Below are positions 4,008 through 29,022 of a stretch of DNA of 54,817 nucleotides, piece after piece. Source of the stretch: Candidatus Saccharicenans sp. (lineage in GTDB: Bacteria > Acidobacteriota > Aminicenantia > Aminicenantales > Saccharicenantaceae). The notes under the pieces were generated by a model. The model was not told the DNA's origin. It did no database searches and saw only the letters and a program-made list of their open reading frames with translations. The translations under genes and the position numbers were made by a program. Location: contig JASEFX010000010.1 of NCBI GenBank assembly GCA_030018265.1, positions 1 through 54,817 on the forward strand. The letters are read 5' to 3'. The number at the start of each line of letters is the position of its first letter. Within the stretch, counting starts at the first letter, position 1.

Positions 4008-6683
4008 ATGCCAGGAAAATCCCGCAGCAGTAGTAAGCCAGAAGCCGGAGAATCGTGTGTAAGATTCAACCGCCGCCTTCTCCAGCTCTTCCGCGGGCTC
4101 CGGGAGGTGGCCGACAGGGAGAATCATTTAGAGAAATTTCTGGAAGAAACGGCCAGACTTCTTGGCCAGACTTTCGGTCACGGAAGGGTAACGATTTTTC
4201 TTTATGATGAAGAGACGCAGGAATTGTATTATCAGCGGGGATGGATTAACGACGGGGGAGAAATTCCGACCGGCTACAGACAGAAAATCACTCAGGGGCT
4301 TATGGGTAAGGCCATCAGAAACCACTCGCCGCTTGTCGTCCAGGATGTTTCCAGCCATAAGGATTTTATTCCTGTTCCCGGACTTAAAGCCGGTTCAGAA
4401 GCCTGCTTTCCGATAACCTTCCGGAATGATATTCTCGGTCTGCTGGATATTATCGACCGGAGAAAGGGGGCCTTCAAAAAAGAGGAGATAGATTTTCTGA
4501 GCTTTTTGGTCCGTTTTATCGGTTCGGCTCTGGCTGAGCGACAGAAGGCCAGAGCCCTGACCACTCAGGCCGAAAAGACCACGTTGATTCTTGACGGGAT
4601 GCGAGATGGTTATTATGAAGTGGATCTGAAAGGCCGATTCACTTTTGTGAATAAAGCTCTGGCCAGAGCCTGGGGCCGCAGCCGGGAAGAAATGCTCGGC
4701 CGGAGTTACCGGGATTTCCTTGTGCCGGAAAGCGTGGAAAAGGTGTTCAGCATTTTCAATGAGGTGTTCAGAACCGGGCAGGCCAGGCTCGGGGTTCAGG
4801 CTCAGGTCAGGGACATTAACGACCAGCTTCACGTCATAGAATTTTCAGTCGCTCTTTTCCGGAACGAAGCCGGAGAACCAACGGGATTTTACGGGATCAT
4901 TCATGACGTAACGGAAAGAGTCAGGATGGAGAAGGAGCTGAGGGAAGCCAACGCCCGGTTTGCCTCCCTGCTGGAAGCTCTGCCAGATGTAATTTATTTC
5001 AAGGATCAGGAGGGCAGAAACCTGATCGTCAACCGGGCGATGGAAGAGCTGACCGGGTTAACCCGGGAAAGAATAATCGGAAAAAGGGATGAAGAGATAT
5101 TCCCGCCCGAACTGGCTCTCCAGTGCCGGCAATCGGACGCGGAGGTTTTAAAACAGAAAAGATCTCTGCGATTTTATGAAAGCCTTAACGATAATAACGG
5201 CCGGAAAATATATTTTGAGACCATCAAATCTCCGGTTTTTGATAAGGACGGTAATCTCATCGGAATAGTAGGAATAAGCCGGAATATCACCGGTATGAAA
5301 GAAGCTGAAGAACGGCTGAAGGAAAGCGAGAGAAGCTTCAGAAGCCTTTTTGAAAATGCCACCGTGGGCATCTACCGCACTTCTCCTGATGGCCGTATTT
5401 TGCTGGCCAATCCAGCCCTGATCAGAATGCTCGGCTATGAAAGCTTTGAAGAACTGGCGACCAGAAGTCTGGAAAAAGAAAGCTTCGAGCCTTCCTATCC
5501 GCGTGAATTGTTTATAGAGCAGATAGAAAAATATGGAGAATTAAGGGGCCTGGAAGCTGCCTGGAAAAGAAAGGACGGCTCTTTCATCTATGTAAGAGAG
5601 AGCGCCAGAGCCATAAAGGATGAAAACGGGAAGACGCTCTATTATGAAGGGATTGTTGAAGACATTACGGAAAAGAAGGAAGCCGAATTGAGACTGACGG
5701 CCCAGCAGGAACTCCTGCAGACGGTTATCGACAGCGCCGAAGACATCATCTTCATTCTGGATAAAGATTACAGGATATTGCTATTCAACAGAGCCGCTCA
5801 AGAATACTTCGGGGTGTCCCCTGAAGAGGTGGCCGGAAAGAACATGGCGGCGTTGTATCCTGAAGAAAGCTGGCCTTCTGCCCGGGAAAGGTTTGACAGA
5901 GTACTCCGGGGAGAAGTTGTTCGTGAAGATGTCAGTTTTGATTACAGAGGCCGGAAGGTAATACTCAACGTGACTCAAGTTCCTCTGCGGAATAAAAAAG
6001 GAGAAATTTACGGACTGTGCGGCATTGCCAGAGATATATCGAACAGAGTGGCCATGGAACAGGCGCTGGAGTCCTCGGTGAAAGAGAAGGAAGCGCTGCT
6101 GAGGGAAATTCACCACCGGGTTAAAAATAACATGCAGGTCATCTGCAGCCTGCTCAACCTCCAGGCCTACCACTCGAAAAACTCTGAACTTACTTCCATT
6201 CTCAAAGACTGCCAGAGCAGAATCCGTTCGATGGCCATTGTGCATGAACAGCTTTACCGTTCCGCCAACCTGGCGAAAATTGATTTTGCCGGTTATCTGG
6301 AGAAATTGGTGGTCCACCTTTATAACGCTCACCGTCAGAGTCAGGAAAAAGTTGCCATTGAAACTCAACTGCAACCGGTAGAACTCGATATAGGTAAGGC
6401 TATACCCCTCGGATTGATGGCCAGCGAAATAATTTCGAATTGTTTCAAGCATGCCTTTCCCGGAGACCGGCGCGGTAGGCTTAAGGTTGTTCTGAGTAAA
6501 ATTGAACCTTCAGGTTTGAAGCTGGAAATAAGCGATGATGGAGTGGGACTTCCGGAAGATTATACCCCGGAAACGAGCAAGACTTTTGGCATGGAGCTGT
6601 TAGAACTTCTGCGGGATCAACTCGGCGCCCGGCTGGAAGTGGACAGAACCTCCGGAACCAGATATCTGATAACCATAACCTGA
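4008..6683 (+). CDS. Soluble sensor histidine kinase: GAF, four PAS domains, HisKA_2, HATPase
   Basis: An 891-aa protein with no membrane segment or signal peptide, so it should be cytoplasmic. Approximate order: GAF (40-180), PAS (190-305), PAS (315-425), PAS (435-560), PAS (565-685), HisKA_2 dimerisation/phosphoacceptor region (690-770) with the IHHRVKNNMQ motif (histidines 702-703), and HATPase_c (790-891) with an N-box (SEIISNCFKHAFP) and G-box (SDDGVGLP). HisKA_2 kinases often lack a linked response regulator and signal to stand-alone receivers or to output proteins. No receiver gene is adjacent here; the nearest is the single-domain receiver at 22269. The GAF and PAS ligands cannot be predicted. 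Confidence 0.93.
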   Translation: MPGKSRSSSKPEAGESCVRFNRRLLQLFRGLREVADRENHLEKFLEETARLLGQTFGHGRVTIFLYDEETQELYYQRGWINDGGEIPTGYRQKITQGLMGKAIRNHSPLVVQDVSSHKDFIPVPGLKAGSEACFPITFRNDILGLLDIIDRRKGAFKKEEIDFLSFLVRFIGSALAERQKARALTTQAEKTTLILDGMRDGYYEVDLKGRFTFVNKALARAWGRSREEMLGRSYRDFLVPESVEKVFSIFNEVFRTGQARLGVQAQVRDINDQLHVIEFSVALFRNEAGEPTGFYGIIHDVTERVRMEKELREANARFASLLEALPDVIYFKDQEGRNLIVNRAMEELTGLTRERIIGKRDEEIFPPELALQCRQSDAEVLKQKRSLRFYESLNDNNGRKIYFETIKSPVFDKDGNLIGIVGISRNITGMKEAEERLKESERSFRSLFENATVGIYRTSPDGRILLANPALIRMLGYESFEELATRSLEKESFEPSYPRELFIEQIEKYGELRGLEAAWKRKDGSFIYVRESARAIKDENGKTLYYEGIVEDITEKKEAELRLTAQQELLQTVIDSAEDIIFILDKDYRILLFNRAAQEYFGVSPEEVAGKNMAALYPEESWPSARERFDRVLRGEVVREDVSFDYRGRKVILNVTQVPLRNKKGEIYGLCGIARDISNRVAMEQALESSVKEKEALLREIHHRVKNNMQVICSLLNLQAYHSKNSELTSILKDCQSRIRSMAIVHEQLYRSANLAKIDFAGYLEKLVVHLYNAHRQSQEKVAIETQLQPVELDIGKAIPLGLMASEIISNCFKHAFPGDRRGRLKVVLSKIEPSGLKLEISDDGVGLPEDYTPETSKTFGMELLELLRDQLGARLEVDRTSGTRYLITIT

Positions 6684-6956: not shown

Positions 6957-7574
6957 TTAAAAGGCTATGCCGATCGTGGCTGACCAGACGCCATTTTTAA
7001 CGTCAGGTTGTGTCCCTTCCTCGATGGCTGTGAGGACCTTTTTCAGACCGAGGCTGTATCTGATGTCGATCATGAAATGCCGTCCGAAATCCAGACCTGC
7101 TCCAAAAATCGCGCCATAGTCGTTGTTTTCCAGTAGCCTTTCTTCAAGTGGAATATCCTGTCCGTTGATCTGAAGTTTTTCCTTCAGCTTGAAACCCACA
7201 GACGGTCCGGCAAAGACGGCTGGCTGAATTCCAGGAGTCGGGATTCTTATTTTAAGGAGCAGAGGAATTTCGACATAATCTCCGTAAAGTTTGCCAGTGT
7301 ATTCACCCAGCGGATCTTCAATCTGAGAGCCTTTCATCGTGTAGAGAACTTCTGGTTGAATGGTAATTATTTTCCCGATGTTTATTGCCAGGAAGATGCC
7401 CGCAGTGAACCCGAGCTTATTCTTTATGGTTCCTTCCAGATCCTGAACGTCCGCTCCGGTCAATTTGGCGGCGCTGGCGCCCCCACGAATACCGAGCTGC
7501 ACTCCAGCCAGAGCGCTGGTCTGAAAAGCCAGCAGAAGCAGCACGACCGAAAGGATAGCCGTAAGTCTTTTCAT
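6957..7574 (-). CDS. Outer-membrane beta-barrel protein (porin-family, OMP_b-brl type)
   Basis: A 205-aa protein with a signal peptide ending at ...SALAG (about residue 24). Alternating hydrophobic strands follow, and the sequence ends in an aromatic residue (GIAF), as in small eight-stranded barrels of the OMP_b-brl_2 type. Repeating segments such as VQLGIRGGASAAKL, FTAGIFLAINIG and GAIFGAGLDFG fit membrane strands. SD AAGGAGG lies 6 nt upstream of the ATG. The function within the family is unknown (structural barrel or adhesin). It is monocistronic, bounded by the terminator downstream. Confidence 0.8.
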   Translation of the reverse strand: MKRLTAILSVVLLLLAFQTSALAGVQLGIRGGASAAKLTGADVQDLEGTIKNKLGFTAGIFLAINIGKIITIQPEVLYTMKGSQIEDPLGEYTGKLYGDYVEIPLLLKIRIPTPGIQPAVFAGPSVGFKLKEKLQINGQDIPLEERLLENNDYGAIFGAGLDFGRHFMIDIRYSLGLKKVLTAIEEGTQPDVKNGVWSATIGIAF

Positions 7575-17674: not shown

Positions 17675-19288
17675 ATGATAGCCCATCGGCGAAAGTTCAA
17701 AGGCTGTATGATCCCGGTTTTATTGCTGATCTTTACGGTTTCGTCTCTTTTCCCGTATCCCTTGAAAACGAAACCGGAAGAAACAGTTGTTCCCAGACCT
17801 GGCGGGGAACTGAGGGTGCGCGCTCCCGGCCAGAGGCTTAATATTGACCTGGATCCGGCCGGTGAGGGGTATCCGCTGGTCATAGAAAATCTGTATGAAG
17901 GACTGATTCGGCTGGACCAGAATTTCAATCTGCTTCCCGGGCTGGCCAATTACTGGTCAGTTTCTGAAAACGGAAAGAAGGTTATTTTTTATCTGAGACA
18001 GAACGCCCAATTTCATAACGGTCAGGAAGTAACGGCCGAAGATGTCAAATTTTCGCTGGAGAGGCTATTTCAGCTTAAGAAGCAGCCGATTTTTTACGAG
18101 CTGGCCAGCCGGATTGAAGGCGGAGAAGAATACTGGAAGGGAGCGGCTCAGGAAGTGAGCGGGCTCCGGGTGGTTGATAAAAAGGTGCTGGAGATAAGCT
18201 GGAAGCGGCCGGGGATCAGCAATTTTTATTTTCTGGCCGCCGGCTTTACCCGGGTTCTGCCAGCCAGCCTTCTGCGCTCGCAGAAAAAGAGGTTTTTTGA
18301 AAAACCGGTCGGGGCAGGACCTTTCAAGTTTGATTACTGGCTCAGAAACAGGCGTCTGGAAGTTATCGGCATCAGGCTGGTGCGGAATGAGAATTATTTT
18401 GACCGGAAACCCCTGCTGGAAGCGGTGGAAATAAGTCCTTACTTTACTCTGGAAGATTTTTTCCAGGATGAAATTCAGGTGATTCCTTATCTGACCTATA
18501 AAATTTCGAGAGAAAAATACCATATCCTTGAAAGCCATCTGATGCAGCTCAGCTATCTTTTCTTCAGCTGTCATATTCCGCCTTTTGACCGGCCGTCGGT
18601 GCGCCGGGCTATTCAGTCCTTTATTGAGAAAAGACAGCTGGCTGGACTGGCTTCAACCACCTCTAATTTTTGCCAGGTTATGAATTGCTTTATTCCGCCC
18701 TTTCTGCCGGGTTTCTTGCCCGAGAGCGGGAGGGCAGAGGAGAATTTCAGCCAGGTTCTGCAGGCGCTGGAAGAAGCCGGTCTCGGGCGTTCGGATAAGC
18801 CCCTGGTGGTCAATCTATATCTGGAGGTCGGAAATCGCGACCTTATCAACAATATTTATCAATTCCTCAGGTATGAATTGAAGCCGGCGGGAATCCAGCT
18901 GGAATTGAAGATAAATTATTCGGCTGAGGATTTAAGCCGGGAAAAAACTCCCTATCTCTTTTACCTTGACTGGTGGCCGGCGCTGCCCGACCCGGAGTTT
19001 GTCCTCTGGCCGCTGTTTCACTCTGAGGGTTCAGTCAACCGGGAGAGGTTTCATTACCGGAATGCCCGGGTTGATCAACTTCTAGAGGCCCAGAGGAATG
19101 GAATTAATTTTCAACGACGGGTCAGCCTTTTCAAGGAAATTGAAAAAATACTGGAAAACGACCTGCCGGCGATACCTCTTTTCTACCATAAACAGAGGCT
19201 GGCTTTTCAACCTTACCTGAGGAACTTGAAGACTTTGCCTTTCGGTTATTTTTGCCTGAATCTGCGCGAGGTATGGATGGTCAGATGA
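17675..19288 (+). CDS. Family 5 (peptide/nickel-type) solute-binding protein, part of a signalling operon
   Basis: A periplasmic SBP_bac_5 protein of about 537 residues. After a signal peptide come the family landmarks NLYEGLIRLD, WSVSENGKKVIFYLRQNAQF, HNGQEVTAEDVKFSLERL and PVGAGPFKF, and near the C-terminus FKEIEKILENDLPAIPLF. Such proteins bind peptides, sugars or metals for ABC import, but no ABC permease or ATPase gene is nearby. Instead its stop codon overlaps the start of a histidine kinase (ATGA), so it probably presents ligand to that sensor. The start is uncertain: the frame is open from 17618, and ATGs at 17675 or 17708 give better signal peptides. No strong SD is present. Confidence 0.85.
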   Translation: MIAHRRKFKGCMIPVLLLIFTVSSLFPYPLKTKPEETVVPRPGGELRVRAPGQRLNIDLDPAGEGYPLVIENLYEGLIRLDQNFNLLPGLANYWSVSENGKKVIFYLRQNAQFHNGQEVTAEDVKFSLERLFQLKKQPIFYELASRIEGGEEYWKGAAQEVSGLRVVDKKVLEISWKRPGISNFYFLAAGFTRVLPASLLRSQKKRFFEKPVGAGPFKFDYWLRNRRLEVIGIRLVRNENYFDRKPLLEAVEISPYFTLEDFFQDEIQVIPYLTYKISREKYHILESHLMQLSYLFFSCHIPPFDRPSVRRAIQSFIEKRQLAGLASTTSNFCQVMNCFIPPFLPGFLPESGRAEENFSQVLQALEEAGLGRSDKPLVVNLYLEVGNRDLINNIYQFLRYELKPAGIQLELKINYSAEDLSREKTPYLFYLDWWPALPDPEFVLWPLFHSEGSVNRERFHYRNARVDQLLEAQRNGINFQRRVSLFKEIEKILENDLPAIPLFYHKQRLAFQPYLRNLKTLPFGYFCLNLREVWMVR

Positions 19289-20769
19289 TAAGGGTGCCGC
19301 GGCCCAGATTTTCTATCTACGGACAGCTGGTTTTCTGGACCTCTCTGATCATTCTGCTGATAATGTCCGGCGTTCTTTACATCATTCAGGAGCGCGAAAT
19401 AAACGCTATCTATCAGGAAAAGAAGGATCGCGGGCTGCTGATGGCCAGATACATCTCCGAAATGAACCTCCGACGGTTGATTCTCTGGGACCTGGAGTCG
19501 ATCGACGAAAATATATCCGGTTTGATAAGGGATGAACTGGCTTATGTCATTTTCTACGATGCCGACGGCCGACCGGTCGTGGTCAGTGAAAGCATCGCCG
19601 ACAATCCTGAAGTCATTAACCGCACCAGCTGCGCCGGTGATGTCTCTCCCGGCGAGGTGTTCATAAAAAACTTCAAAGTGGCGCTGAGAGGAATTTCTCT
19701 GGAAGTTATGGAGATAGAGGTCCCGGTATTTGTCCCCGGCTCCGATAAAAAATGGGGCTCGGTGAAGATCGGGCTGAAGCTGGAGGATGTTTATCGAAGA
19801 ATTCAGCGGACCAGAATGCTGCTTCTGGGGTTCGGACTCGGAGCTTTTCTGCTGACTCTTCTGGCTACCAACATAATGGCCCGGAAGCTCACCCGGCCGA
19901 TAAAGAATCTGGTTGAAGGCACCAGACGTCTTTCCCGCGGAGATTTCAGCTATCGCATCCCGGTGGTCTCGTCCAATGAAGTAGGCGACCTCACCAGTAG
20001 TTTCAACGAAATGGCCGAAGAACTGGCCCGGGCGCGGGAGAAGATGGAGGAAGCCAACCGCCGGCTGGTTCAGGCTGAAAAGCTGGCTTCGATCGGCCGG
20101 CTTTCGGCGACCATCGCCCATGAAATCCGGAACCCTCTGACTTCAGTAAAACTGAACATTCAGAAGCTGGCCGAACTTTCAAACCTGGGAGAAACTGAAA
20201 AAGAACATCTGGAGATTGCCCGGGCGGGCATTGAACAGATTGAAAAATTTATCAAGGATTTGCTGAGCTATACCAGGGCTTCCACCCTGCAGAAGGATTA
20301 CTTTTCGCTTGAAGAGATTATGGAAGAATCGATAAAGATGCTTCAGGGGAGCCTTAAAGAAAAAGAGATAAGAGTGAAAAAGTTTTATCAGGCCGGTCTG
20401 CCCCCCGCTTATGTCGACGCTGACCGCCTGCGGCAGGTTTTTCTTAACGTTCTGCGCAATGCCTATGAGGCGGTCGACCATGGGGGTGAGATCGAAGTGT
20501 CGATAGAATTGAATCGTCAGTACGACCGTTGCTGTTTTGAAATCAGAATCAGCGACGATGGCTGCGGCATTCCGGAAAAGGATTGGGAAAATATTTTTGA
20601 ACCGTTTTTTACCACCAAAAGCTCGGGGGCCGGGCTCGGTCTGGCCAACGCCCGGAGGATAATCGAGCAGCATGGGGGAAGCATCAGGGTGATTCCCAGG
20701 GAAGTACCCGGGAGCTGCTTTTTAATCACCCTGCCTCTGGAGGAAATCGGCCAGGAGGATTTAACATGA
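19285..20769 (+). CDS. Membrane sensor histidine kinase (HAMP, HisKA, HATPase)
   Basis: A kinase of about 494 residues. TM1 (about 12-32) and TM2 (about 175-195) enclose a periplasmic sensor domain of about 140 residues. A HAMP domain follows (ARKLTRPIKNLVEGTRRLSRGDFSYRIP), then a HisKA region with the phosphoacceptor in IAHEIRNPLTSVKLNIQ, and a HATPase with N-box VFLNVLRNAYEAV and the G-boxes SDDGCGIP and SGAGLGLANARRI. This is NtrB/ZraS-like in layout. The start is set at the ATGA overlap with the binding-protein gene; the frame also contains an earlier ATG at 19273. Its stop overlaps the next start (ATGA), so it is coupled to the activator gene. Confidence 0.93.
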   Translation: MIRVPRPRFSIYGQLVFWTSLIILLIMSGVLYIIQEREINAIYQEKKDRGLLMARYISEMNLRRLILWDLESIDENISGLIRDELAYVIFYDADGRPVVVSESIADNPEVINRTSCAGDVSPGEVFIKNFKVALRGISLEVMEIEVPVFVPGSDKKWGSVKIGLKLEDVYRRIQRTRMLLLGFGLGAFLLTLLATNIMARKLTRPIKNLVEGTRRLSRGDFSYRIPVVSSNEVGDLTSSFNEMAEELARAREKMEEANRRLVQAEKLASIGRLSATIAHEIRNPLTSVKLNIQKLAELSNLGETEKEHLEIARAGIEQIEKFIKDLLSYTRASTLQKDYFSLEEIMEESIKMLQGSLKEKEIRVKKFYQAGLPPAYVDADRLRQVFLNVLRNAYEAVDHGGEIEVSIELNRQYDRCCFEIRISDDGCGIPEKDWENIFEPFFTTKSSGAGLGLANARRIIEQHGGSIRVIPREVPGSCFLITLPLEEIGQEDLT

Positions 20770-22130
20770 CACGCATACTGGTGATTGAAGACGATTCTCT
20801 TGTCAGCCGGACGATAGCCGCTCATCTGAAAAAGAAAGGTTATGAAGTAAAGCTGGCTGAGAGCGGTGAAGAAGGACTCGAGCTGTACAGGGAATTCAGA
20901 CCTGAGCTGACGCTCCTGGATATAAAATTGCCTGATATCAACGGGCTGGAAGTTTTAAGACAGCTCAAACAGCTGGACAAAAACGCGGCCGTGGTGGTGA
21001 TGACGGCTTTTGACGATATGAAGACCACGGTGGAAGCGATCAAGTCCGGAGCTTTTGAATATCTGGTGAAACCGCTGGATTATCTCGAGCTTGACCTGAC
21101 GATGGAGAAAGCTTTCCAGCTCAAAGCTCTTGAGGAAAAGGTAAGCTACCTGATCGAAGAAAAGCAGAAGGAATACCAGATTGATAACATCATCGGTCGC
21201 TCGCCCCAGATGAGGGAAGTTTTCAAGATCATAGGTTCGGTGGCCAACACCAGAGCTAACGTTCTGGTCCAGGGAGAGAGCGGCACTGGAAAGGAGCTGG
21301 TGGCCAAAGCCATTCACTACAGCAGCCCCTGGCGCGACGAGCCTTTCATCGTCATCAACTGTTCCGCTCTTCCTGATACCATCCTCGAATCAGAGCTTTT
21401 CGGACACGTGAAGGGAGCCTTTACCGATGCTGTCACCGAAACCAGAGGAAAGTTTGAAATTGCCGGCAAGGGGACGCTGTTTCTCGATGAGATCGGAGAT
21501 ATTTCTCCGAACCTGCAGTCGAAACTTCTGCGGGTAATCGAGACCAGGGATTTTATGAAAGTGGGCGGAGAAAAGATTCTGAAGACCGAAGCCAGGATTA
21601 TTGCCGCCACCAACCAGAATCTGAAGGAGCTGGTCAATCAGGGAAAGTTCAGGGAAGACCTTTACTACCGCCTTAAAGTGGTGGAAATCTGGCTTCCGCC
21701 TTTGAGGGAAAGAAAAGAGGATATTCCTGATCTGGTGGCTTATCTGCTGGAAAAGATTAACCGGGATCTCAAGAAGAACGTGAAGAAGGTTCCGCCTGAA
21801 GTGATGGAGTACCTGATTAACAGGCCGTGGCGCGGCAATGTGCGGGAGCTGGAGAACGCCCTGACCAGGGCCGTGATCCTGGCGAAGGGAGATGTAATCC
21901 TTAAGGAAAATCTTCCTTTCGAACCTGAAGAAAAATCTGCAGGCGAACCCGGCTTTCAGATGCCGAAGGAGCTGGTGCCGCTCTGGGAGGTGGAAAAGCG
22001 GTACATTCAGTACGTTCTGGAAGCGACGAAAGGGAGCAAAACGAAAGCCTGCCAGATTCTCGGGATCAGCCGGCCAACGCTCGATAAAAAGATCAAAGAT
22101 TATAATCTGCGGGTGGAAACCACCGACTGA
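20766..22130 (+). CDS. NtrC-type sigma-54 activating response regulator
   Basis: A 454-aa three-domain protein. Receiver (1-120): acidic pocket Glu8-Asp9-Asp10, phosphoacceptor Asp52, Thr80, Lys102. AAA+ activator domain (about 140-380): Walker A GESGTGKE (170-177), the sigma-54-contacting loop GAFTDA (217-222) and Walker B LFLDE (238-242). C-terminal Fis-type helix-turn-helix (about 415-450, KGSKTKACQILGISRPTLDKKI). It should drive sigma-54 promoters when phosphorylated by the coupled kinase. Two such promoters with matching upstream palindromes lie within 1.7 kb downstream, so they are its likely targets. Confidence 0.96.
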   Translation: MTRILVIEDDSLVSRTIAAHLKKKGYEVKLAESGEEGLELYREFRPELTLLDIKLPDINGLEVLRQLKQLDKNAAVVVMTAFDDMKTTVEAIKSGAFEYLVKPLDYLELDLTMEKAFQLKALEEKVSYLIEEKQKEYQIDNIIGRSPQMREVFKIIGSVANTRANVLVQGESGTGKELVAKAIHYSSPWRDEPFIVINCSALPDTILESELFGHVKGAFTDAVTETRGKFEIAGKGTLFLDEIGDISPNLQSKLLRVIETRDFMKVGGEKILKTEARIIAATNQNLKELVNQGKFREDLYYRLKVVEIWLPPLRERKEDIPDLVAYLLEKINRDLKKNVKKVPPEVMEYLINRPWRGNVRELENALTRAVILAKGDVILKENLPFEPEEKSAGEPGFQMPKELVPLWEVEKRYIQYVLEATKGSKTKACQILGISRPTLDKKIKDYNLRVETTD

Positions 22131-22230: not shown

Positions 22231-22246
22231 TGGCACAAAACCTGCT
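22231..22246 (+). promoter_or_regulatory. Sigma-54 (-24/-12) promoter of the receiver gene
   Basis: TGGCACAAAACCTGCT matches the TGGCACR-N4-TTGCW consensus with one mismatch in the -12 element, with correct GG-GC spacing. Transcription would begin near 22256, leaving about 12 nt before the receiver ATG with GAGAGGG as the SD. Confidence 0.8.
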
Positions 22247-22268: not shown

Positions 22269-22634
22269 ATGATGCCAGAAAAGAGGATCGTTATTGTCGA
22301 CGATGATGAATTTATAAGGAAGACCTTTTTCCTTTTGCTTTCAAAAAAATACAACGTGTATTTAGCCAGCGACGCCCGGGAAGCTATGGCTCGGTTTGAG
22401 AAGTCTCCGATTGACCTGATCATTGCCGACCTGCGTCTTCCAAGGAAAAGCGGCCTGCAGATGGTGGCCGATTTCCGCAGGTCCGGTTATAAGGGAAAAA
22501 TTATTTTAATTTCCGCCTGGGCTGAACAGGTTTCCAGTGAAGAGCTGGAAAGGCTCGGAGTCGACCGGATTTTTTTAAAACCGCTCGACCTGAACTCTCT
22601 TAATGAGACGATAGACGCGCTTCTCGGAGATTGA
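22269..22634 (+). CDS. Single-domain response regulator (receiver only)
   Basis: A 121-aa CheY-like receiver with Asp11-Asp12-Asp13 pocket, phosphoacceptor Asp54 (IIADLRLPR), Ser82 in the Thr/Ser position and Lys104 (FLKPLD). No output domain follows. It is driven by a sigma-54 promoter, so its level should follow the upstream kinase/activator pair. It may feed back on a kinase as a phosphate sink or act by protein contact. A second in-frame ATG at 22272 is possible. Confidence 0.92.
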   Translation: MMPEKRIVIVDDDEFIRKTFFLLLSKKYNVYLASDAREAMARFEKSPIDLIIADLRLPRKSGLQMVADFRRSGYKGKIILISAWAEQVSSEELERLGVDRIFLKPLDLNSLNETIDALLGD

Positions 22635-23721: not shown

Positions 23722-23740
23722 CTGTAAAAGATTTTTACAG
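23722..23740. promoter_or_regulatory. Putative enhancer site (UAS) 2 for the NtrC-type regulator
   Basis: CTGTAAAAGATTTTTACAG is a perfect 8-bp inverted repeat with a 3-bp spacer. It starts 79 bp upstream of the consensus sigma-54 promoter and resembles UAS 1. A further half-site TGTAAAA lies at 23756-23762. Confidence 0.65.
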
Positions 23741-23800: not shown

Positions 23801-23816
23801 TGGCACGAAATTTGCT
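23801..23816 (+). promoter_or_regulatory. Perfect-consensus sigma-54 promoter
   Basis: TGGCACGAAATTTGCT matches TGGCACG-N4-TTGCW at every fixed position. The expected start is at about 23827. Confidence 0.88.
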
Positions 23817-24014
23817 GTTTAAAAAGATGGTGGATGAAATGGAGAGCAGAGTCAGGAACGCAGAAATTAAGCAGGAACACATCCCTTATATATATGCTGG
23901 TCCGGGGAGGGAGACATTGAGATTTAATAAGAGAGAATTTAAGCCGGTTTCTCCCTCCCTCTTTGCTTCCAGGATGGGCGATGAGCGCACCCATCACTTA
24001 ATAAATGCCTCCTT

Positions 24015-24034
24015 TTTGCCCTTCTTTGCCCTTC
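24015..24034 (+). repeat. Two tandem copies of a 10-nt pyrimidine-rich unit
   Basis: TTTGCCCTTC occurs twice head to tail (24015-24024 and 24025-24034) inside the candidate small RNA. It is flanked by further C/T runs, and may offer repeated mRNA-pairing sites. Confidence 0.7.
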
Positions 24035-24063
24035 TTTCCATTCCCCCTTCCTTCAATTGACTT

Positions 24064-24097
24064 AGAGGGGTGCACGGCGGCACCCCTCTTTTTTTTT
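24064..24097 (+). terminator. Very strong intrinsic terminator
   Basis: AGAGGGGTGC (24064-24073) pairs perfectly with GCACCCCTCT (24080-24089) over a 6-nt loop, followed by nine T and another T-rich stretch. It ends the sigma-54 transcript; the downstream gene is on the opposite strand. Confidence 0.92.
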
Positions 24098-26262: not shown

Positions 26263-27486
26263 ATGGAATTGATTCCTGTCATTTCCGCCGTCGCTTATTT
26301 TCTTTATCTTGCGGCGGAAGCTGTGCCTTTCCGTCAAAAATTTAAAGTGGTGAACAGACGGATAGCAGTCAGCGGAATAAGGGGAAAATCGAGCGTTACC
26401 AGGTTGATTGCCGGCGGGTTGAAAGGCGCTGGCTTCAGAGTTCTGGCCAAGACCACCGGTTCGCGCCCGATGCTGATTTATCCGGATGGCCGGGAGGCGG
26501 TCATTCGCCGGCGCGGGCGGCCTGGCATTCTCGAGCAGAAAAAATTGATGGCTGAAGCCGCTCGGGAACAGGTTGATTTTTTAGTGAGCGAGATGATGAG
26601 CATTCAACCGGAATGTTTGCGCGCGGAGCTCCGGAATCTGGTAAAACCGGAAATCCTGGTTCTAACCAATTTTAGGGTTGATCATGTTGAATATCTAGGA
26701 GAAGACAGGGAAAGCGTCGCCCGGGCGATGCTCGGTGCTGTTCCCTCCGGGACCCTGGTGTTTCTGCCTGAGGAAGAATCGCAGCCCTGGATGACGGATT
26801 TTTCCCGGAAAAGAAGCTTCGAATTGAGAATCGTTTCCGGCAATCGAGAAACAGCCAGGTTGTGTGAGATGCTGAGTTATCCTGAATTTGAGCCTAACGC
26901 CAGACTCGCGCTATCAGTCCTGAGGCTTTTCGGGATATCTGAAGATCAGGTTATTTCCGGATGGTCCGCTCTGAATCCTGATTTCGGGAGGATGAGGGTC
27001 TGGAAAATAGAAAACCGGAATGGAAGCCATTTTTATTTTGTAAACCTGTTTGCTGTGAACGACCCTGAATCGAGCCGGCTGGCGATCGAATCGCTGACCG
27101 CCAGGGCAGGCTGGCCGAAAAAAAGAATGCTCGGGCTGATAAGTCTCCGGGGTGATCGGGGTGACAGAACCTGGCAGTGGGCTGAGTTTCTTAATTCAGG
27201 TCAGGCTGATTTCCTCGAGGGTCTGATGGTGACCGGCCCGGGCCCCCGCGCATTTCTCAGGAAATTGAAAGGACGCTTTTTGCGTTCTGACCGTCCCTGT
27301 TTTGTTTTGAAGGGAAAATCCCCGGAAGAAGATCTGGAGGAAATTAAAAGGATAGTTTCGGGATTTCAGGGAATCGGTAAAATCTCCGGTGAGAGCTGGC
27401 TGGTTTTTGCCCTGGGAAATATCGGCGGGTTCGGCCAGAGATTGATAGATTATCTGGAAAGGACTCACGATGACCTCAGAATATAG
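26263..27486 (+). CDS. pgsB: PgsB/CapB-type poly-gamma-glutamate ligase
   Basis: A 407-aa amide ligase related to Mur ligases. An N-terminal membrane segment (about 4-20) is followed by the ATP-binding P-loop VSGIRGKSSVTRLI (about 36-49). Conserved blocks include AKTTGSRPMLIYPDG, SEMMSIQPECLRAEL and LTNFRVDHVEYLG, all typical of PgsB/CapB (Bacillus PgsB is 393 aa). It should form gamma-linked glutamate, or another amide polymer, at the cytoplasmic membrane together with PgsC. It overlaps pgsC by 17 nt, indicating tight coupling. SD AGAGGAG lies upstream. Confidence 0.93.
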   Translation: MELIPVISAVAYFLYLAAEAVPFRQKFKVVNRRIAVSGIRGKSSVTRLIAGGLKGAGFRVLAKTTGSRPMLIYPDGREAVIRRRGRPGILEQKKLMAEAAREQVDFLVSEMMSIQPECLRAELRNLVKPEILVLTNFRVDHVEYLGEDRESVARAMLGAVPSGTLVFLPEEESQPWMTDFSRKRSFELRIVSGNRETARLCEMLSYPEFEPNARLALSVLRLFGISEDQVISGWSALNPDFGRMRVWKIENRNGSHFYFVNLFAVNDPESSRLAIESLTARAGWPKKRMLGLISLRGDRGDRTWQWAEFLNSGQADFLEGLMVTGPGPRAFLRKLKGRFLRSDRPCFVLKGKSPEEDLEEIKRIVSGFQGIGKISGESWLVFALGNIGGFGQRLIDYLERTHDDLRI

Positions 27487-27904
27487 TTCGTTGTTTTTCG
27501 GACTGGTGGCGGCGCTGATATTCGCCGAACTTACCGGCATCTCGCCCGGCGGGTTGATTGTTCCCGGATATTTTGCCATCTACCTTGACCAGCCCGGGCG
27601 TCCGCTGATTACCCTGGCCGCGGCTTTTCTGGCTCTTGGAGTTTATAAGCTGGCTTCGAATTATTTTATTCTTTTCGGCCGGCGCCGGTTTGTTTTTATG
27701 ATACTTACCGGCGTGCTTCTGGCTCAGGGCTGGAACTGGCTGCTGCCCGGGTTGATGGAGGAACCTCTCTCGCTCAAAGTGATCGGCTGGGTCGTGCCGG
27801 GACTTCTGGCTTCGAACCTGGAGCGGCAGAAAATCCTCCCGACGCTGGCGGCGCTGGTGTTTGTCTCGGTCTTAACCTTTCTGACAGTCAGGCTGGTTTT
27901 CTGA
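27470..27904 (+). CDS. pgsC: PgsC/CapC-type poly-gamma-glutamate synthesis membrane protein
   Basis: A 144-aa, strongly hydrophobic protein with about four or five membrane helices. The opening SSLFFGLVAALIFAELTGISPGGLIVPGYFAIYLDQPGR is characteristic of PgsC/CapC (149 aa in Bacillus). It partners PgsB in the membrane-bound polymerase/export complex. Its start overlaps pgsB by 17 nt and its stop overlaps the pgsW start (TGATG), so the three genes form one translational unit. Confidence 0.93.
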   Translation: MTSEYSSLFFGLVAALIFAELTGISPGGLIVPGYFAIYLDQPGRPLITLAAAFLALGVYKLASNYFILFGRRRFVFMILTGVLLAQGWNWLLPGLMEEPLSLKVIGWVVPGLLASNLERQKILPTLAALVFVSVLTFLTVRLVF

Positions 27905-29022
27905 TGAGCGGCGACTCGAATTTCAAGCTGATCGGACTGGCGATTATCAGCCTCATTTTTCTCGGCCTGTATGTCGCGTTTGAGCGGGATAACTGGAAAT
28001 CACTGCAGCCTGGAGCCACGGAAATCACGGCTGCCAGACTGATGGCTGAAGCTACAGAAGTTGTTAGCAGCTGTCAGAAAAGTAGCGGAATAGCTCCGGA
28101 AGACAACAAATTTGATATCAACCGGACCGGCCTGATCGGTCTGGAACACAGCCCGCTGACCACCACTCTTGGTAACCTCGAAGCGAAGAGAACGACCTGC
28201 AATCCGGCCATGGCTGCGCTGCTGGTTTACCTTTTGAAGGAAGCCGGTGTCAGGCGGGGAGAGGTGGTGGCTCTGGGCGCTTCGGCTTCTTTTCCGGCGC
28301 TCATCATTGCGGCCTATTCCGCTGCCCGGGCGCTCGACCTCGAGCTTCTGGCGATAATTTCTGTCGGGGCTTCGCAATGGGGGGCGAATAATCCGGAATT
28401 TTCCTGGCTCGATATGGAGGATTGTTTGCGCCGGGCCGGGTTTTCCCGGCAGAGACTTCTGGCTGTGGCCTGGGGAGGAGAGGACGATTCTGGCAGCGAA
28501 TATCCTGATGAATTAAAAGAGCGGTTGGTTAAAAAAGCTTCACAACTCGGACTTTCTTTTCTTCCCGGCGGAAGTCTGGAAGAAAGGGTGAGAGTTCATC
28601 TTGATTTATTTCAAAGAGCGGCCGGCCGGCGCAGGATAAAGGCTTTCATAAACATCGGAGGCAGTTCGGTTAATCTCGGGTCGGATTCTTCTATTTTGAA
28701 GCTCGAGCCGGGGCTCGCCCGGGTGAAACACATCCCGCCTGCCGGAAGGAGAGGGCTGATTCAGGAAATGGCCGCACGAAGTGTACCGGTTATTCATCTT
28801 TTGAACATTCGTCGCCTGGCGGAAACTTACGGGCTTCCCTGGGATCCCCGGCCTCTTCCTCCAGCCAGCATTCCGGCCTTAAAAGTGGCAGGTTCACCGC
28901 CCGGAAGCAAACGGTTGTTGATCCTGTACGCAGGTTACCTGACGGCGATTTTTATCTGGTTGATTCTTGCGGGGATTATTCGTAAAAAACGCGGTTGGCG
29001 GGCGCTTCGGACGGATTCTTAA
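27904..29022 (+). CDS. pgsW: PgsW-type poly-gamma-glutamate system protein
   Basis: A 372-aa protein with an N-terminal membrane segment (about 8-25), an extracytoplasmic domain and a C-terminal membrane segment (about 337-360) ending in basic residues. The NRTGLIGLEHSPLTTTLGNLEAKRTTCNP region and the ALGASASFPALIIAAY segment fit what I recall of PgsW. PgsW is reported in systems that lack PgsA/CapA, and none is visible here, so it may replace PgsA in transport or anchoring. The last 47 nt of the gene overlap the 3' end of the convergent deacylase gene. Confidence 0.82.
   Translation: MSGDSNFKLIGLAIISLIFLGLYVAFERDNWKSLQPGATEITAARLMAEATEVVSSCQKSSGIAPEDNKFDINRTGLIGLEHSPLTTTLGNLEAKRTTCNPAMAALLVYLLKEAGVRRGEVVALGASASFPALIIAAYSAARALDLELLAIISVGASQWGANNPEFSWLDMEDCLRRAGFSRQRLLAVAWGGEDDSGSEYPDELKERLVKKASQLGLSFLPGGSLEERVRVHLDLFQRAAGRRRIKAFINIGGSSVNLGSDSSILKLEPGLARVKHIPPAGRRGLIQEMAARSVPVIHLLNIRRLAETYGLPWDPRPLPPASIPALKVAGSPPGSKRLLILYAGYLTAIFIWLILAGIIRKKRGWRALRTDS

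Follow-up and report, generated by a model that had tools for sequence, protein, structure and literature searches.

A predicted sigma-54-dependent small RNA with an invariant pyrimidine core and a selected open frame, linked to a two-component cassette of Candidatus Saccharicenans

Results

The locus and its transcription signals

The window analyzed here, a stretch of 54,817 nucleotides from Candidatus Saccharicenans sp. (contig JASEFX010000010.1), encodes a histidine kinase, an NtrC-type activator and a CheY-like response regulator on its forward strand, followed by a short predicted transcription unit (Table 1). Farther on, at 26263-29022, lie CapB/CapC-like genes and a third conserved gene, a poly-gamma-glutamate-like set that is present at most congeneric loci reaching that far.

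Table 1. Features of the cassette and of the predicted RNA (coordinates refer to the window).
Feature	Coordinates	Strand	Basis or remark
HAMP histidine kinase of the cassette	19252-20769	+	Pfam HAMP/HisKA/HATPase_c
NtrC-type sigma-54 activator (receiver, AAA+, Fis HTH)	20766-22130	+	Pfam; presumed switch of the RNA
Second sigma-54 promoter, TGGCACAAAACCTGCT	22231-22246	+	Before the CheY-like gene; near-match activator site upstream
CheY-like single-domain response regulator	22269-22634	+	Pfam Response_reg
Presumed activator site CTGTAAAAGATTTTTACAG, inverted repeat	23722-23740	+	GTAAA-N5-TTTAC at 23724-23738
-24/-12 promoter TGGCACGAAATTTGCT	23801-23816	+	Strict consensus match; conserved in congeners
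Predicted transcript	23827-24097	+	Promoter spacing and terminator
Open frame	23839-24060	+	Orthologous start ATG 23839; stop TGA 24058-24060
Hairpin 1, GGGGAGGGAGA 23904-23914 / TCTCCCTCCC 23950-23959	23904-23959	+	Alignment prediction; compensatory changes
Small stem GAG.GCA / TGCCTC, partly covering CCTCC	23983-24011	+	RNAalifold; arms 23983-23989 / 24006-24011
Invariant pyrimidine core	24006-24058	+	53 consecutive invariant columns
Intrinsic terminator	24064-24097	+	10-bp stem 24064-24089, then T9

The strict promoter consensus TGGCAC-N5-TTGCW has a single match in the window, TGGCACgaaatTTGCT at 23801-23816, with 0.056 matches expected on both strands from independent bases. The predicted transcription start, twelve bases past the -12 GC, coincides with an ATG at 23827. 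Terminator-like sites are not in themselves unusual here, with 7 present in the region and 5.1 expected by chance; the terminator of the unit is the strongest of the 7. A sequence-only reading of this region had described a perfect -24/-12 promoter, a 10-bp/T9 terminator, a 10-bp hairpin with a second one, and a pyrimidine tract with CCTCC and two TTTGCCCTTC copies; all were found where it had placed them, the tract falling within 24006-24058 and being invariant in 18 loci, and promoter and terminator are conserved in congeners. It had overlooked the inverted repeat at 23722-23740 and the second sigma-54 promoter at 22231-22246, the latter of which is missed by the strict scan and detected by a looser one.

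Among the predicted structures, hairpin 1 has 3 pairs that are changed on both sides in some species of the genus alignment, while the small stem is nearly invariant and therefore carries no covariation test. The terminator loop is altered in 5 loci (L012 and L014-L017) with the stem kept. In one congener (L014), hairpin 1 is missing together with about 110 nt of the body, yet the locus retains promoter, start codon, frame, core and terminator.

The RNA is conserved within the genus

When 60 genomes were searched at the DNA level, 18 gave a match: the own genome and all but one of its 18 congeners. The 41 genomes outside the genus gave none, and in the congener without a match (G016) the cassette contig breaks off within the ARMT1-like gene. 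The congeners show conservation of promoter, activator site, core and terminator alike. The 53 columns of the core (24006-24058) are invariant in the 17 aligned loci (own genome and 16 congeners) and also in all 18 once locus L018 is included. In the activator gene, by comparison, 18 sequences agree at only 1 of 102 fourfold sites and the longest invariant run is 5 nt, which argues that the constraint on the core acts on nucleotides. A 22-base piece of the core occurs in 17 public contigs, all of them records of metagenome-assembled genomes.

A covariance search of relatives had been proposed by the sequence-only reading as a check. Model R1 matched 18 of the 94 genomes of the order, all of them in this genus, but missed the RNAs of sister genera that are described below. 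In a phylum sample, 7 of 297 genomes were matched, and the single match outside the genus (L053 in genome G308) was rejected as only a terminator-like hairpin beside another gene, with no core. The Rfam search of the RNA gave nothing at gathering level; the best score (E 0.045, 21.6 bits vs a cut-off of 41) was for suhB/mmgR, which we take to be linked to the alpha-r14/NfeR1/cuckoo group. From these genome comparisons, we conclude that the transcription unit is real and conserved.

Linkage to the two-component cassette and sigma-54 control

The order kinase, activator, CheY-like gene and RNA is found on one contig in the own genome and in 16 of the 17 congeners carrying the RNA, and in the 17th (G010) cassette and RNA are split over two contigs. 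An SBP5 gene stands in front of the cassette in 15 of the 16 congeneric one-contig loci, the remaining one (L028) beginning after that gene, and neighboring ARMT1-like, NTPase and M24 genes are absent at some congeneric loci with the cassette-RNA order kept. Across the family, the kinase orthologue is near full length in 32 of 34 genomes, in two pieces in G032 and represented only by a weaker match in G031, and of 20 genomes tested from the order's other families, 18 have an activator orthologue of 73-78% identity.

We used a strict pattern of GTAAA-N5-TTTAC, 45-75 bases and TGGCAY-N6-TGC, with the reversed pattern as control. Across the 19 genus genomes this pattern has 34 matches, all at two loci (reversed control, 0): in 18 of 19 genomes it lies at this RNA and in 16 of 19 at one other locus, where the same gene start, that of a secreted protein of about 350 residues, follows in 15 of 16 loci and L138 ends at the promoter. 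One such secreted-protein locus is L149 (from position 1500), with 15 further loci; one copy was tested and matched nothing in NCBIfam and nothing in Pfam below 0.07, and the gene before it resembles mltG by eye. A sigma-54 promoter just before the CheY-like gene occurs in the window and in 14 of 18 other-family loci. Upstream of this promoter, at about 22145, lies a near-match activator site whose repeat does not fit the strict pattern.

Linkage and co-occurrence suggest that the linked activator binds the inverted repeat and drives the RNA. With a conserved -24/-12 promoter and its activator site, a short unit closed by an intrinsic terminator, and related loci elsewhere, comparative genomics strongly supports the earlier proposal of a sigma-54-dependent small RNA.

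Related RNAs in sister genera and another family

A search of sister genera guided by the kinase gave 14 loci, of which L071 (= congener G016), L072 and L076 end before the place of the RNA and were excluded from the counts. All 11 loci with enough DNA have, after the same cassette, a sigma-54 promoter and a shorter RNA with a C-rich core; the strict activator site is present in 7 of them, and L091 likewise has a sigma-54 promoter and a C-rich core. This core is GATACCCTTCCATAACCCTCCTTCTTT, varied in genus g2 and slightly in L074 and L077, and the terminator of these RNAs shows compensatory changes. Model R2, built from 10 sister-genus loci (L080 was left out for masked bases), strongly recovers two held-out genomes of genus g4 (G032 and G033) and weakly recovers all 18 loci of Candidatus Saccharicenans (E 3e-5 to 3e-3), a level that promoterless background matches also reach. 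Of its weak matches outside the family, L104 and L115 were inspected and rejected because no promoter was found in either locus.

A third version of the RNA, whose core is ACTCTCTTCCTTTC, occurs in family f2. Six of its loci were used to build model R3, which matches all 12 f2 genomes and none of the other 82; in each of the 6 held-out loci, a sigma-54 promoter precedes the core motif by 43-68 nt. In 11 of 18 other-family loci (L116-L118, L120, L121, L126, L128 and L130-L133), no C-rich motif with a promoter was found; several of these loci stop shortly past the cassette, and L117 and L126 have their f2 RNA on another contig. The three cores (Candidatus Saccharicenans, g4/g2 and f2) share position, control and composition. 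Their homology is putative and is suggested by position and control rather more than by sequence, since R1 misses the sister-genus RNAs among the 94 order genomes, R2 is weak in Candidatus Saccharicenans, and R2 does not find the f2 RNAs.

Three loci have a second sigma-54 transcript of another kind and were not counted as members. In the f4 loci L116 and L118, a tiny hydrophobic frame (MSKLLMLPAAFIIFFFFFM and MSKLMFLLALLMFFFYFLA, respectively, each followed by a stop) comes after a sigma-54 promoter that lies downstream of the cassette (positions 7431 and 9709, both with the activator turned to the plus strand). In one f6 genome, a sigma-54 promoter (L120, position 5884) precedes about 100 nt that end in a strong terminator and contain no C-rich core. 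In f6 locus L119 (genome G044), a sigma-54 promoter at 5125 precedes CCCCTCCCTTCCCTCCTTCTTCCCC, which has a C-rich look and may be a further member; it was left uncounted.

Does the core act on mRNAs or on a protein?

The core had been proposed to pair with purine-rich Shine-Dalgarno (SD) regions, and its sequence makes such pairing plausible. Target prediction gave no enrichment over shuffled cores: across the start regions of 667 genes, obtained by simple gene calls in 0.8 Mb of the ~2.9-Mb genome of congener G009, mean pairing energy was -20.5 for the core and -20.4 (sd 0.53) for 25 shuffles. The longest perfect match of 13 nt was reached or exceeded by 11 of 40 shuffles, and matches of at least 10 nt numbered 19 vs a shuffle mean of 11.1 and maximum of 27. 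Of the marks expected of a trans-acting anti-SD RNA, the analysis thus found neither a covariance match to a known family nor, in this 0.8 Mb, pairing beyond composition. The start of the HU gene (GGCAAAAAGGAGG) has a 12-13-nt core match in 13 of the 16 genus genomes with a match; it is only a weak candidate target because CAAAAAGGAGG of this start overlaps a strong SD and also occurs in 6 of the 10 sister-genus loci that could be read (4 of 30 loci were unread, as the pattern did not recognize their start). In predicted folds, the core is largely paired in Candidatus Saccharicenans (mean unpaired probability 0.44 over 17 loci) and unpaired in the fold of a g4 member. Self-pairing of body and core as an evolved switch was no better than in shuffles (z -1.16 to 1.64).

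Alternatively, the repeated CCCUUC/UCCUUCUUU motifs might titrate a protein that binds single-stranded RNA (of the Hfq-like, cold-shock or KH kind), an account that we regard as unlikely. Its model is CrcZ, which titrates Hfq/Crc; as described in PMC8871633, CrcZ/CrcY of Pseudomonas resemble the RNA described here in their sigma-N promoter, in their position downstream of the genes for a kinase and an NtrC-type activator (CbrAB) and in conserved synteny, so that the order cbrA-cbrB-crcZ under sigma-54 has its counterpart here. Motif repeats, and a composition that is kept while the sequence shifts between genera and families, also speak for titration. An Hfq-family match (E <= 0.01) is present in 31 of the 34 family genomes and in 19 of 19 genus genomes; in 11 of these 19 it passes the curated cut-off. 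On the other side, titration would need motifs rather than 53 invariant nucleotides including spacers, and the g4 and f2 RNAs have only one or two motifs. Hfq/Crc binds CA-rich motifs, and CrcZ is longer than the RNA described here, which differs further in having no Rfam match, an open frame and a pyrimidine core.

An open frame under selection whose peptide is mostly free

The sequence-only reading had found no credible open reading frame in its candidate small RNA. This proved wrong, and a noncoding transcript is not supported in this genus. A frame from ATG 23827 or 23839 to the stop at 24058-24060 is open in all 17 complete loci (own genome and 16 congeners; L018, at a contig end in G010, was excluded from frame and codon counts), starting 0-14 nt after the predicted transcription start, crossing hairpin and core, and stopping just before the terminator with TGA, TAA or TAG in different species. 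In neutral simulations on a rough tree from the same region, none of 400 runs remained stop-free and on average 14.4 of 16 leaves were broken (minimum 9; L014 excluded, codon alignment made on proteins). Sister genus g4 has such a frame in 11 of 11 loci, vs 1 of 11 and 0 of 11 for the other frames, ending in TLP-stop in all 11 and in PDTLP in 10. It is not kept in g2, where L073 has a GTG-type frame leaving the RNA without a stop, like six f2 RNAs. In f2, 6 of 12 RNAs have no start codon in their first 25 nt and the other 6 (L234, L235, L239, L241, L123 and L124) only a GTG, located in the 5' hairpin. Since the frame from this GTG crosses the core and passes the terminator with no stop, these six RNAs are not shown to be noncoding.

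A codon-level substitution pattern, once named as what would speak against a small RNA, is present only in that stops are excluded. Substitutions in a clade of 9 are even over the codon positions (400/433/459), and by pairwise, hence not independent, counts, synonymous single changes are in no excess in this same close clade (120 of 490 vs 126.8 expected) or over all loci (364 vs 391.3 expected), with a mild excess in a clade of 4 (33 of 101 vs 24.1 expected). The C-terminus of the frame is invariant, as are its synonymous sites, and the N-terminal part is nearly unconstrained. The frame thus appears to be under selection and the upstream peptide hardly, because stops are excluded with no synonymous excess overall. 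We conclude, from these alignments, that translation is probably selected in Candidatus Saccharicenans and g4, and most of the peptide is not. A protein-coding gene with a conserved upstream peptide is unsupported by the codon test, the mild excess in one small clade apart. A minus-strand antisense gene was rejected, its reading frames not seeming to agree among relatives when the alignment was inspected by eye.

Arrest peptides combine a conserved C-terminus with a free N-terminus, and the unit might accordingly be an mRNA whose conserved C-terminus (ASFLPFFALLSIPPSFN before the stop; TLP in g4) is a product or stalls the ribosome before the terminator. Three observations fit this account: the frame stays open in all 17 loci of Candidatus Saccharicenans and all 11 of g4 and starts near the transcription start, the stop has a fixed place in Candidatus Saccharicenans with all three stop codons in use, and the clade of 4 shows the mild excess. 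We nonetheless hold it to be improbable: the 17 core codons show no synonymous change across 18 loci, against the single invariant fourfold site of the activator gene, and in L003 and L007 the stem has changed in ways that preserve its pairing but replace E by K and P by S. The peptides of Candidatus Saccharicenans, g4 and g2 are moreover unrelated, and half of the f2 RNAs have no start codon. Against attenuation stands the position of the next recognized gene, which is on the opposite strand in 12 of 18 loci and 217-782 nt on along the same strand in 6 (only genes of the query set were sought in congeners). That the RNA is plainly noncoding and its frame a by-product of composition and recent ancestry is very improbable: a purine-rich body and pyrimidine core make stops rarer and there is little amino-acid constraint upstream, but the other two frames have 2-8 stops per locus, no simulation stayed open, and frame retention is repeated in g4.

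Discussion

Several known systems resemble parts of this arrangement. By analogy, the RNA is like CrcZ, GlmY and Qrr in its arrangement, like alpha-r14 in its motif and like dual-function RNAs in its frame. GlmY (under QseEF, with glmY beside qseEGF) and Qrr (under LuxO) are likewise sigma-54 RNAs under NtrC-type activators; their targets are known, and the RNA here has no Rfam match. Both are known from proteobacteria. Dual-function RNAs such as VcdRP and SgrS also combine a small RNA with an open frame, which is here under selection. VcdRP and SgrS encode a conserved peptide and pair through a separate region, whereas in our case the upstream peptide is nearly unconstrained and, in Candidatus Saccharicenans, the frame crosses the core. 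The alpha-r14/NfeR1/cuckoo RNAs carry the same kind of motif, an ultraconserved anti-SD CCUCCUCCC in three copies in unpaired regions, borne by three hairpins in the alpha-r14 family, and NfeR1 has an RpoD promoter, according to PMC10746234; the RNA described here differs in its sigma-54 control and its one long core. Within a limited literature collection, a search for small RNAs or sigma-54 in Aminicenantes gave no paper.

The explanation that we favor, and to which we give about an even chance, is that this is a sigma-54 small regulatory RNA of the linked kinase/activator pair whose core acts as RNA and which, in Candidatus Saccharicenans and g4, bears a translated overlay. Once the pair is switched on, the activator of the cassette would drive the RNA promoter, and sigma-54 RNA polymerase would make the RNA. 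The core would then act at the RNA level, most likely by pairing with the purine-rich leaders (SD regions) of several target mRNAs, and the cassette would thereby repress these targets while activating its own genes. In Candidatus Saccharicenans and g4, both of family f1, translation of the RNA would begin at or close to its 5' end and continue as far as the core or across it, and in the former a frame over the whole core would compete with pairing in trans. Because translation to or through the core appears selected and the N-terminal peptide does not, the ribosome probably serves the RNA rather than a conserved protein, be it by clearing structure, by protecting from Rho or RNase, or by gating the core.

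The last of these options can be put more specifically, and we offer it tentatively as a possible but doubtful extension: (near-)leaderless translation of a content-free frame might let the passing or terminating ribosome decide whether the core can act. Such gating would be an overlay in one family, given that at least half of the genomes of another family have no start codon in the RNA.

If the favored explanation, a small regulatory RNA of the kinase/activator pair, is correct, it would add a group of sigma-54 regulatory RNAs that are linked to a single conserved two-component cassette, in a lineage of metagenome-assembled genomes (17 public records). The case also implies that calls of "no credible ORF" or "noncoding" need a frame test across relatives, and a frame that is kept while its peptide is free may offer a testable case of selection for translation itself.
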